36,333 nt of DNA, from positions 1 through 36,333 of the forward strand of contig JAFAOB010000184.1 of the NCBI GenBank assembly GCA_019238055.1. The letters are read 5' to 3'. Under the pieces are notes generated by a model. It was not told where the DNA came from. It worked only from the letters and a program-made list of their open reading frames with translations, and ran no database searches. This document shows, piece by piece, positions 32,219 to 36,333 of the stretch (position 1 is the stretch's first letter; each line of letters starts with the position of its first letter). Both the position numbers and the translations under genes were made by a program. The DNA is from Alphaproteobacteria bacterium. GTDB taxonomy: Bacteria; Pseudomonadota; Alphaproteobacteria; ATCC43930; CGMCC-115725.

Positions 32219-33646
32219 CTATTCTGCGGCGCGATCGCATAGGGTGGCGCGGCGCGATTTGCCGCCATTGGCGGCCAAGTAAACCGCGCGGTTGGTCTCG
32301 ACATTGAACGCGAGACGCCGTGTCGCGGCGTCGTATTGCGGCCGCGCCAGGATCCGTGCCGCCAATTCCAGATGATTGCCGATGTCGAAATACTCGATCA
32401 TCGCCGGGTGATATTTCCCGAATTGCAGAAAAGTATGGATTCGCGACGCGATCACGCGGCAGCCGAGCTCGAGCGCCTGCGAGATTGGGCCGGACGAGGA
32501 CTGACCCACCTCAAGGTATGGAAAAACCACGGTGTCGCAGATCGCCATTCCGGTCAGGAATTCATCGTCGCTGGTGGCCCCGAGAAAATGAATGCGGTGC
32601 GAGAGATCCTTCGGGTGCTGGATCAAGAGGTCGCGCATCGAGCCATCTACGGCCACCGAGACGGTCGGTGTGCCGGGTGCCGGAGCCGCACGGATCCGCT
32701 CGGCGACGTTAGTGTCTACGTATCCGGCATCGAACAGCGCCGCCACGGTCGGATCGATTGGCTGGTGCGACCTGATCTCGTTCGGATGAATGCCCCCAAA
32801 GATCAACAGGTGATGGTCGTCTGACAGGTGATGCAGAGCGCGGATTACGGTGTCGAAGCCCTTGTAGCGCCCGATAAACCCAAAGACGCCGATGAGCTTG
32901 GCCTCGCTCGGGACGATGTCGAGGATCGGAAACCGGTGTCGGTTCGCGGCGCGGCGGATCCTGCGGGCCTCGGCATCGCCAAGGAACGACAGCGGATGAT
33001 CGTAGACGTTGCGCAGACCATGGACATATTTCATGTGCGCTAGGTCGCGTTGGGTGTGTACAACAACTGCCACCGGCTTGAACCGCTGCGCTCGACGCAG
33101 GCGGCTTGCAATTCCGGCTGACAGCAGGTGGGCACGGTTGTATTCGCCCCGCATCGCCGCCGCCTCGGCGAAATTGAATCGCGCGATCGCCTTCAACCAT
33201 TTGCCATAGTCGAATGCCGCGGCATCGAACATCGAGTGGAACGTCACCGACAGCTGAGGTGCGGCGCGCACGATCCAGCCGAACCGGCGAAAGATGTCAC
33301 GGGCCGTACGGCCCAGGGTGCCGTGCTCGAGCTGCAAGTTGACAGCATCGAAGTCCTTGAGCTCGCGGCAGATCTCTTGAATGTGCCGATCACCGAACTT
33401 GCGCACACGGCCATGGGTGCTGCGCAATAAATATTGGTTCAGGTCGAAGACACGGATGTCGAAAACATCGCTCAATTGCTTTTCGAGGCTGCGCGTATAG
33501 GCCGCGATGCCGCACAACTCGCTATAAGTTGACACAAGTGCGAGCCGCGGCCGCGTTGTACGCATCGCTGCACGAAATCGAGCGGTGCTCACGCCTCCTT
33601 CCGGAAACAGCAGCGGCCGAGATGACTCGAATTCAACGGTCGACAT
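32219..33646 (-). CDS. Glycosyltransferase, GT-B fold (family 4-like)
   Basis: A 475-residue glycosyltransferase. The N-terminal half opens with RLALVSTYSELCGIAAYTRS, the strand and Gly-rich turn of GT-B enzymes, and has an LQLEHG motif. The C-terminal half has IGVFGFIGRYKGFDTVIRAL (the G-R-x-x-x-x-K-G-x region) and VVFPYLEVGQSSSGPISQAL, matching the E-x(7)-E-type nucleotide-sugar loop region in which Gln and Ser replace the usual first Glu context. The ATG at 33646 has AGGAAA upstream. It starts 25 bases after kpsE and is therefore likely part of the capsule operon, adding a sugar to the exported polysaccharide. Donor and acceptor are unknown. Confidence 0.85.
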   Translation of the reverse strand: MSTVEFESSRPLLFPEGGVSTARFRAAMRTTRPRLALVSTYSELCGIAAYTRSLEKQLSDVFDIRVFDLNQYLLRSTHGRVRKFGDRHIQEICRELKDFDAVNLQLEHGTLGRTARDIFRRFGWIVRAAPQLSVTFHSMFDAAAFDYGKWLKAIARFNFAEAAAMRGEYNRAHLLSAGIASRLRRAQRFKPVAVVVHTQRDLAHMKYVHGLRNVYDHPLSFLGDAEARRIRRAANRHRFPILDIVPSEAKLIGVFGFIGRYKGFDTVIRALHHLSDDHHLLIFGGIHPNEIRSHQPIDPTVAALFDAGYVDTNVAERIRAAPAPGTPTVSVAVDGSMRDLLIQHPKDLSHRIHFLGATSDDEFLTGMAICDTVVFPYLEVGQSSSGPISQALELGCRVIASRIHTFLQFGKYHPAMIEYFDIGNHLELAARILARPQYDAATRRLAFNVETNRAVYLAANGGKSRRATLCDRAAE

Positions 33647-33671: not shown

Positions 33672-34931
33672 CTAAAGGTGATCTCTGACCGAGCGGATGG
33701 TCAGACCGCCGATCCCCCAAACGATAAAGCTGGCCAGGAACACGACCCCCGGCGAACGCCATCGCCGCGGGTAGAGTGCTTCCTCGGGTAGGCTCGGCGG
33801 TACGAAATCTGCAATGTAGATCTGTTGGCGGTCGGCATTGATGCGCGCGCGGTCAAGAGCCTCGAGCGCGTGCTGATAGGCGGCCTCAGCAAAACGCCGT
33901 TCGCTTTCGAGCTCTTCATAAGAGCCTATCATCCGCGACAGCGCCTGATCGCGCGTTCTTGCGGTAACCGTCGCCTCGCTCTCGATCGCGCTGCGCTGAG
34001 CTTTGAGCGTGGCAATGCGCGCTTCGAGCAATTTAAGCGCCGGGGCGTCGTCCCGCAGATATGTTTTCAGTGTCGACAGATCGGTCCCGGCGCGTACCAG
34101 CTCGTCGCGCAACCGATTGGCAAGAGCCGCATTCGCATCGGCCGCCTTATGGGGGTCGATCAGCCCTTCTTTGTCGCGGTAGTCGCGCAGACGCGCCAAT
34201 GCGGCGGTCAAGCGCCGCTCTGCCGCCGCGACGTCATTCTCGGAATTGCGCAATGCGTCGCGCCGGGCGCGGGCCGACATATCGTTGACCAGCCGCTCGG
34301 AGGACCCCAGCACCGCCCGCGCCAATGTCAGCGCGTCACCCGGGGTGAACGCCCGTACGCGAACCGCAATTGTGCCATTGGTCGGATCAAAAAAGGCGTC
34401 GACCTGGCGCTGCCAATAAGCGATCAGTTCCTCGATTGTCGCCGGCAGGTGCAGCCGCGCCGGCCAATCCGCAGCGGGTGTTGAAAATGTCCGCCGCAGG
34501 TCCAGTGTTTTGCCGAGATCGTCGATGACCGCCCGGCTGCCGATATATTGCGCGACCACATAGGAATTGAGCGCGCTTTGCAATGCTGGAGCACTCGCCG
34601 GCCACAGCATCCCGGTATCGATACGCACCGGCTCGGCAGAGCGCAAGGCAAAATGAAACTCGGCAACATATTGATTGGCAGCGATCAATAGATAATAAGC
34701 GGCGGCAACCGCTGTCGGCAGGACGACGAACAATATAAACGACAACAATGTCAATGGAACACGGCGAGCCTTGGCCGCAGCGGAACCGACAAGCCGCGGT
34801 CCGGGCGAAAGGGCGGGCTCGATCGCGGGAGTGGGCGCCAGCAACCCGCTGGCTCCTGGTTGTACGGGCGGCGCCGGGTGCGGCTCGGCCGTCGCCTGCG
34901 CATTGCGGAGGGCTATGACCGAGCCCGTCAT
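33672..34931 (-). CDS. kpsE: Capsule polysaccharide export inner-membrane protein (KpsE/CtrB/BexC family)
   Basis: A 419-residue polysaccharide co-polymerase-type protein that links the KpsMT transporter to the outer-membrane porin. A Pro-rich cytoplasmic N-terminus (about 1-57) precedes the first membrane helix (LTLLSFILFVVLPTAVAAAY, about 59-81). The periplasmic part has YVAEFHFALRSAEP and the AFTPGDALTLARAVLGSSER block typical of KpsE/BexC. A long coiled coil (about 215-370) and a second membrane helix near 395-412 follow. The C-terminus RSVRDHL is short and cytoplasmic. The start shares one base with the kpsT stop (TGATG), so translation is coupled. Confidence 0.93.
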   Translation of the reverse strand: MTGSVIALRNAQATAEPHPAPPVQPGASGLLAPTPAIEPALSPGPRLVGSAAAKARRVPLTLLSFILFVVLPTAVAAAYYLLIAANQYVAEFHFALRSAEPVRIDTGMLWPASAPALQSALNSYVVAQYIGSRAVIDDLGKTLDLRRTFSTPAADWPARLHLPATIEELIAYWQRQVDAFFDPTNGTIAVRVRAFTPGDALTLARAVLGSSERLVNDMSARARRDALRNSENDVAAAERRLTAALARLRDYRDKEGLIDPHKAADANAALANRLRDELVRAGTDLSTLKTYLRDDAPALKLLEARIATLKAQRSAIESEATVTARTRDQALSRMIGSYEELESERRFAEAAYQHALEALDRARINADRQQIYIADFVPPSLPEEALYPRRWRSPGVVFLASFIVWGIGGLTIRSVRDHL

Positions 34932-35593
34932 CAGATCGTTTCCTGCAACATGCGGTGATAGCGGGTAAGAGCTGCGCCAATCTCGTCGTAGAGCGACAAT
35001 GCGCCGTCGGCGAGGATCGCGCCGCGGTCACAGTATTGGCGGATCGTCTGCGGGTTGTGACTAACGAGGATGATGTCGGAATGCGCCATGCGAGCGCGGA
35101 AGGCGTCGGCGCATTTGCGGCGAAAGCGCTGGTCTCCGACCTCGGTTATCTCGTCGATCAAATAGACGTCGAAATCGATCGCCAGGCAGACCGCAAAGGC
35201 AAGCCGGGCGCGCATCCCGGAGGAATAAGTATTGACCGGCATTGTCCAGTATTCGCCGAGTTCGGCGAAATCTTCGACATAGTCGAGGGTTGCGCCCACC
35301 GGAGCGCCATAGATGCGGGCGATGAAGGCCGCATTCTCGCACCCGGAGAGCGCGCCGTGAAAGGTGCCGCCAAACCCGAGCGGAAACGATACCCGCCCAT
35401 AGCGCCGCACGATGCCGCGGTCGGGCAATTCCGAGCCGGCAATGAGCCGGATCAGGGTCGACTTGCCGGCGCCATTGACGCCGAGAATGCCAACATTGTG
35501 TCCCGCTTCGAAGGTGGCACTGGCATTGTCGAGCACAAGTTTGCGCCCGCGGGGCGTCCGAAACGTCTTTGTTACGTGCTCGAGCCGGATCAT
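34931..35593 (-). CDS. kpsT: Capsule polysaccharide ABC transporter, ATP-binding protein
   Basis: A 220-residue ATPase that powers export of capsular polysaccharide through KpsM. Walker A is GVNGAGKST (38-46), the signature motif YSSGMRARL (123-131), Walker B FDVYLIDE (141-148, with catalytic E148) and the switch histidine H177 in LVSHN. The YSSGM form of the signature is typical of polysaccharide exporters (KpsT/CtrD). The RYGRVSFPLGFGGTFHGALS segment matches the Q-loop region of the same group. The length is normal and the gene looks intact. It overlaps kpsM by four bases (ATGA) and kpsE by one. Confidence 0.95.
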   Translation of the reverse strand: MIRLEHVTKTFRTPRGRKLVLDNASATFEAGHNVGILGVNGAGKSTLIRLIAGSELPDRGIVRRYGRVSFPLGFGGTFHGALSGCENAAFIARIYGAPVGATLDYVEDFAELGEYWTMPVNTYSSGMRARLAFAVCLAIDFDVYLIDEITEVGDQRFRRKCADAFRARMAHSDIILVSHNPQTIRQYCDRGAILADGALSLYDEIGAALTRYHRMLQETI

Positions 35594-36237
35594 AGCGGCT
35601 CACAAAGCCGGTGCCGCAGCCCGCGTTCCAACGCCAAGCCGGTAAGCAACACCGATCCAGCGACCGCCAGCAGATAGGAGCGATCAAGCCAATGCGGCAG
35701 ATAGCCGGTAAAAAAGCTCGCGCGGAACCAGTCGACGCCCTGTAAGACCGGATTCCAAGCAAGCGTGGCGCGGATCCAATCCGGCATCATTCCCGGGACA
35801 TAAAATATTCCGGAGCAGAAATACAAAATGCGGATCAGTTGCGCCCAGATCTTGTCCCAGGATTTAAAAAACGCATTGACCACCGCATTGACAAAACCAA
35901 AGCCGCAACCCAACAGCCACACAGCAAAGGTCGCCGCGGCCACTCCGCCAAAGTCGGATGGCAAGGTGCCCAACCCGATTGCCCCGAACCCGGCCAGAAG
36001 AATCACGGCCACGAGGATGTCGGTGACGAGTTCGAGCAGGCCGCGCGCTAAAATTACATCAAAGGTGCCGACCAAAGGCAATTGCAGCAGTGCGCCATTG
36101 GCCGTCACTGCATAAGAGGCGGTTTTCACAATTACCTCTGGTTGAGATGTCTGACCGCCCGGCCTGCTCTGCCGCTGCCCATATTTAGAGTGACAGACAT
36201 GGACAATGGCCTTGGACATCAGAATTTTGCATCTCAT
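35590..36237 (-). CDS. kpsM: Capsule polysaccharide ABC transporter permease, N-terminally truncated
   Basis: The frame encodes 215 residues, but only the part from about residue 42 (AVTANGALLQLPLVG, then FDVILARGLLELVTDIL) is homologous to the ABC-2 permease KpsM. From there it is complete: four membrane helices, the NAVVNAFFKSWDKIWAQLIR and YFCSGIFYVPGMMP segments and a normal end. Intact KpsM proteins have about 260 residues, so roughly the first 80, with the first two helices and the amphipathic start, are missing. The first 40 codons here (hydrophilic, QRQSRPGGQTSQ) do not fit any permease. No other frame upstream restores the lost part. GTG at 36129 with AGAGG five bases upstream could start a 179-residue product. 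Transport activity of such a product is doubtful. Confidence 0.8.
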   Translation of the reverse strand: MRCKILMSKAIVHVCHSKYGQRQSRPGGQTSQPEVIVKTASYAVTANGALLQLPLVGTFDVILARGLLELVTDILVAVILLAGFGAIGLGTLPSDFGGVAAATFAVWLLGCGFGFVNAVVNAFFKSWDKIWAQLIRILYFCSGIFYVPGMMPDWIRATLAWNPVLQGVDWFRASFFTGYLPHWLDRSYLLAVAGSVLLTGLALERGLRHRLCEPL

Positions 36238-36333
36238 CGCGACAGTGATCGACGCGTGTGGGCGACCGCGTCATCGTGGGCGCGGTCACCCGCCTACCGC
36301 AACCGTTCGCGTGCTGGCCACCCTGCGCCGGTT
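36238..36333. other. Right edge, unassigned sequence upstream of truncated kpsM
   Basis: About 96 bases that should contain either the lost start of kpsM or its promoter, but resemble neither. A plus-strand frame from ATG 36199 stays open to the edge (MDNGLGHQNFASHRDSDRRV at its start) without a recognisable motif. It could be the end of an inserted element. Confidence 0.3.

Follow-up and report, generated by a model that had tools for sequence, protein, structure and literature searches.

The window is the entire contig C101 (36,333 bp) of G000, a draft genome of 4.72 Mb in 516 contigs, whose bin was estimated to be 91% complete with 0.7% (0.74%) contamination. At the right end of this contig, the minus strand encodes, in this order, the 3′ part of kpsM, kpsT, kpsE and a glycosyltransferase gene (Table 1). 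The same gene order was found by synteny in three related genomes (G002, G007 and G008). Profile matches agreed with the original prediction that kpsT and kpsE are intact and coupled. Among named genomes, the closest relatives of the permease came from soil and other environmental metagenome assemblies, mostly labelled Alphaproteobacteria. The left end of the contig (positions 1–147) is also a repeat, 98–100% identical to the end of contig C103 and to C381:1091-1237.

Table 1 Features at the right end of contig C101.
Feature	Position	Strand	Evidence
Glycosyltransferase downstream of kpsE, intact	32219..33646	-	Weak Glycos_transf_1 match and synteny
kpsE-like inner-membrane export protein (BexC/CtrB/KpsE family), intact	33672..34931	-	TIGR01010 (E 7.8e-68, below trusted cut-off)
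kpsT, ATP-binding subunit, intact, overlapping the kpsM stop	34931..35593	-	ABC_tran and VexC/Wzt-type matches
kpsM 3′ part, about 174 codons plus stop (coupling segment, TM3–TM6)	35590..36114	-	Pfam and C274 alignment
TAA at the kpsM/IS junction, probably a copy of the target site (TNA)	36113..36115		Alignment of copies
IS5-type (DUF4096 transposase) insertion sequence, left end, cut by contig end	36116..36333	+	Similarity to seven contig ends
GTG, possible re-start codon within the IS end (product about 179 aa)	36127..36129	-	Sequence reading
Transposase frame start (MALDIRILHLIATVIDACGR...), about 42 codons, running off the contig end, opposite to kpsM	36206..36333	+	Similarity to C364

The reading frame at 35590–36237 (minus strand) encodes 215 aa and contains the permease domain only in part. 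Its match to Pfam ABC2_membrane is limited to profile positions 85–211 of 211, and its NCBIfam KpsM match begins at profile position 78 of 257, whereas the allele on contig C274 of the same assembly covers ABC2_membrane positions 3–211, with the interface helix and six TMs. The frame shows the genetic coupling to KpsT- and KpsE-type partners expected of a KpsM/Wzm-type permease. In the DNA alignment, kpsM is 94% identical to the C274 allele across 35900–36114 and shows no identity past 36114, a sharp end in the region (36111–36130) where the original prediction had seen homology stop. The upstream codons that it had called unrelated, about 40 at the start of the frame, are insertion-sequence DNA read in frame. 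The C101 fragment is not a complete KpsM, as it has neither the TPR domain nor the part of the permease that holds the interface helix, TM1 and TM2 (residues 1 to about 91). The loss exceeds the N-terminal third first proposed: orthologous genes are TPR-KpsM frames of 606–694 codons, so the loss amounts to about three quarters of the protein. As this case illustrates, what looks like a “short gene” where an assembled contig ends may be insertion-sequence DNA in frame.

Positions 36113–36333 match sequences at seven further contig ends in G000 (C364, C189, C188, C204, C435, C507 and C467) with 71–75% identity. The alignments begin at 36107–36116, and one weaker alignment extends to 36088. When the G000 copies were aligned, the terminus GARGCGGTTTTCACAAYTACC was common to all eight and the flanks were unrelated; copies at unrelated sites thus share one end, as is characteristic of an insertion sequence. 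YTAA, YTTA or ATAA precedes GARGCGGTTTTCACAA in seven of the eight copies (ATAA in C101), and the uninterrupted kpsM of G007 reads ..GCATAAGTCAT.. on the same strand. Only the left junction of the C101 copy was assembled, so the target duplication is a candidate deduced from one end. Because the element is repeated, C101 stops 218 bp inside it. The putative transposase start in the window is 72% identical to the N-terminus of the transposase of C364, the longest copy, which matched PF13340 (DUF4096, putative IS4/5 transposase) with 27.2 bits (E 4.8e-6), under the gathering cut-off of 34.3 bits and for the transposase N-terminus alone, the only part assembled. The element resembles IS5-type elements in its putative transposase N-terminus, multi-copy state and TNA-like targets; given the sub-threshold Pfam match and copies assembled with one end only, the label IS5-type is used without a subgroup. 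Its full end was not found in the 24 relatives searched, and the element is multi-copy in G000. A copy of the same element on C189 (L037:1-530) interrupts a reverse-transcriptase-like reading frame, and the remaining copies interrupt or adjoin unrelated genes at contig ends.

The original prediction had advised looking for the missing 5′ part, an insertion sequence or a second kpsM. The end of an insertion sequence lies at the break and an intact kpsM lies on C274. A search of the whole G000 assembly found the kpsM 5′ half on C274 only. C274 overlaps C101 by 657 bp with 93% nucleotide identity and carries the uncut gene. Its product (L035:133-2091) is 652 aa long, with TPR repeats at about residues 1–387 and a 265-aa KpsM domain. 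The same fusion is uninterrupted in G002, G005, G007 and G008, which provided the range of frame lengths given above. In the portion of the literature covered by a limited search, no description of a TPR-KpsM fusion was found. The genes of C101 follow kpsM in G002 and G007, and the gene next to kpsM on C274 (luciferase-like) lies upstream of kpsM in G002 and G005. In G000, each flank of the locus was found once, kpsE and the glycosyltransferase gene on C101 and the luciferase-like gene on C274. Therefore, C101 and C274 together match one ancestral locus, with its flanks split between them as they stand at the single locus of the relatives.

Between the permease parts of C101 and C274, dS was 0.26 and dN/dS 0.12, and the C101 fragment contained no stops. 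These values indicate that both copies stayed under selection until recently. The retained 3′ half being undecayed, either the insertion is recent or the fragment is still used. The exporter is polymorphic or duplicated in the sample and not simply dead; the proposal that it may be dead cannot be extended to the organism, where the intact C274 allele is present. Most simply, the two contigs would represent two alleles of one locus in a mixed population (a co-binned strain).

We consider it highly probable (about 0.87) that an IS5-type insertion broke the TPR-kpsM gene of a capsule-type export operon in C101, with an intact allele in the same assembly. The element would have transposed into the gene for the permease in an ABC-transporter-dependent polysaccharide export operon (TPR-kpsM, kpsT, kpsE and glycosyltransferase), cutting this gene where TM2 ends, after about 90 codons of the permease domain. 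Judging from the parts that are missing, the C101 allele would most likely be null for export. The insertion may also be polar on kpsT and kpsE, and the interrupted and intact alleles would belong to different cells. The original prediction, which is partly supported, had suggested a deletion, insertion or phase-variation-like breakpoint; of these, an insertion is supported, as the IS5-type element starts at the junction, and nothing points to reversibility. Some observations sit less well with an IS5-type insertion: only one end of the element was assembled, the 5′ part of the gene was seen on C274 alone, the C101 copy is just 71–75% identical to the other copies, and the remaining half of the gene shows no decay.

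The break is confirmed as genuine. An assembly join at this point appears disfavoured, since the break coincides with a repeat terminus. A chimera, in which C101 would owe its end to a false join with the end of a repeat while only the intact allele exists in the real genome, would account for a contig that ends in a repeat, for an intact sister allele, and for a 5′ half of the C101 allele that is absent elsewhere in the assembly. However, a random join would not sit at an insertion sequence terminus with a TNA-like target like that of other copies, C101 extends 218 bp into the element compared with about 141–152 bp at most other copies, and the 7% difference from C274 means that the two are not simply one molecule misjoined. 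We therefore regard a chimera as improbable. A partial duplication within one genome, with one of the two copies (C101 and C274) later cut by the insertion sequence, is a weightier alternative, though still an unlikely one. Both contigs fall in one bin with a low contamination estimate (0.74%), and the dS between the copies is above usual strain variation. The locus is single in G002, G005, G007 and G008, however, and its flanks are divided between C101 and C274, as would be expected for two alleles of one locus.

It is also conceivable that the fragment yields a short but working permease, with translation starting within the insertion sequence end. The GTG and the AGAGG (36135–36139, minus strand) noted in the original prediction are indeed present at the junction, a similar sequence being present in other copies of the element, and initiation there could possibly yield a product without the interface helix, TM1 and TM2. 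The dN/dS and the absence of stops would fit such use, and the broken loci of G006 and G022 likewise keep an open 3′ half with intact kpsT and kpsE. We give this explanation very little credence, because no intact relative is so short, the parts absent from the product make substrate contacts in the solved KpsM (PMC11041684), and a recent insertion explains the missing decay equally well. Short functional orthologues, named at the outset as grounds against a truncation, did not turn up either: intact orthologues are long TPR-KpsM, and the short ones in G006, G022 and G046 are broken by other elements, on which grounds an independent family of short permeases was rejected. Reversible, phase-variation-like switching of the exporter by excision of the element has a precedent in laboratory E. 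coli K1 under phage, in which excision from kpsE restored the capsule (PMC9241782), and both states coexist in the G000 assembly. Given their 7% difference across the overlap, the two states do not represent a single recent switch on one chromosome, and we hold switching to be very improbable.

A search of 39 genomes of the family, in which the junctions were read, uncovered 14 TPR-KpsM-type loci. Eight of them were whole (C274, G002, G005, G007, G008, G011, G045 and G048) and six were broken; mobile elements account for five of the breaks and a 43-bp deletion for the sixth. In nucleotides of the permease domain, the IS5-type break of C101 lies at about 273. In G022, an element of about 6.9 kb with an IS1595-type transposase (L055:7728-16589 on G022:C4) interrupts the gene at nucleotide 235. 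This element has terminal 22-bp inverted repeats, GGTATTATGGCGCAAATGGGAC, with a repeated target around GGCCTCATTC, and its cargo encodes several proteins of unknown function. In G046 (L093:7024-7321 on G046:C334), the break is also at nucleotide 235 and is caused by another element, whose 22-bp end is related to that in G022, the contig ending about 60 bp further on. An identical kpsM base was thus hit by two different elements in non-sister genomes (L055:15169-15190 in G022). In the kpsT tree, G022 groups with the intact G048 and not with G046 (support 94/94), and for this reason the two insertions look independent. A single ancestral insertion shared by G022 and G046 was disfavoured, as the similarity of the elements does not reach past the 22-bp end, and the kpsT tree disagrees.

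The break in G006 (L054:3741-5584 on G006:C270; L091:5408-6757 on G006:C48), at about nucleotides 241–251, is due to a tyrosine-integrase island. An 11-bp core, CACATGTTCGT, is found at both junctions, one of which the integrase adjoins, and CACATGTTCGT is likely an att core inside kpsM. The remaining two breaks, at most 3 bp apart, fall at permease-domain codon 196: G013 (L057:559-1143) has an IS-like end, GGTATTATG, at nucleotide 586, and G043 (L094:4449-5200) has the 43-bp deletion, with a frameshift, at nucleotide 588. Four of the six breaks (C101, G022, G046 and G006) lie within about 40 bp, three separate insertions being only a few dozen bases from that of C101. kpsT is intact at all 12 loci where it was assembled, as are its first 45 codons on C274. 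Where kpsE or the glycosyltransferase gene is not intact, it is cut by a contig end only; the G013 locus was assembled only up to the break. The ten paralogues of the permease in these genomes all have their full length.

In simulations, the concentration of four out of the six breaks in a 38-bp stretch of the gene had p of about 4e-4, or p = 0.011 for three of five breaks when G022 and G046 were counted once, and the restriction of all six to the permease, out of the whole operon, had p of about 1e-5. Breakage was more frequent in TPR-KpsM loci (6/14) than in the paralogues (0/10; Fisher’s exact test: p = 0.024). These tests were chosen post hoc on a small sample of genomes that are nearly all drafts, available as assemblies without reads. 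The two kpsM sites used by IS1595-type elements, CCGGCCTCATTC and CCGGCATCTTCC, are similar when compared in the same register. A strict IS1595-type target motif was rejected as the cause of the clustering, as copies outside kpsM in G022 and G045 lie at unrelated targets; target preference alone is therefore not established. The clustering may come from selection for loss of export or from a mixture of selection and target preference. Only tentatively, and at less than even odds, do we propose that TPR-kpsM is a true hotspot in this family of soil Alphaproteobacteria, where unrelated elements (IS5-type, IS1595-type and an integrase-bearing island) would repeatedly enter about 40 bp at the end of TM2, or codon 196, so that export is repeatedly turned off while the operon is kept, through target preference, selection or both.

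The C101 insertion alone is an ordinary hit by an insertion sequence, an event of a known kind; the repeated breakage of one gene across a family is the sole part that would surprise a specialist. If six independent breaks are borne out by reads, surface polysaccharide export has been lost repeatedly in uncultured soil bacteria, with phage pressure as an obvious candidate cause, and the clustering would show entry points of mobile elements.

In the solved KpsM of the KpsMT-KpsE complex, an interface helix at the N-terminus precedes six TMs; TM1 and TM5 flank the substrate canyon, and the interface helix, TM1 and TM2 contact the substrate (PMC11041684). The permease domain of the intact C274 allele is homologous to KpsM of PDB 8tsh over its whole length (phmmer E 1.7e-23) and is likewise encoded in an operon with kpsT and kpsE. 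Unlike KpsM of 8tsh, it forms the C-terminal 265 residues of a protein of about 650 aa, behind an N-terminal TPR domain. Disruption of capsule loci by insertion sequences is well known (PMC9241782; PMC13171598). In E. coli K1 under phage selection, as in C101, the gene interrupted by an insertion sequence belongs to an ABC-transporter-dependent capsule export locus, and the C101 insertion would similarly remove surface polysaccharide. The genes hit in E. coli K1, however, were kpsE and neuC, in a laboratory strain for which the phenotype was shown (PMC9241782), whereas in C101 the target is kpsM of an uncultured soil alphaproteobacterium.
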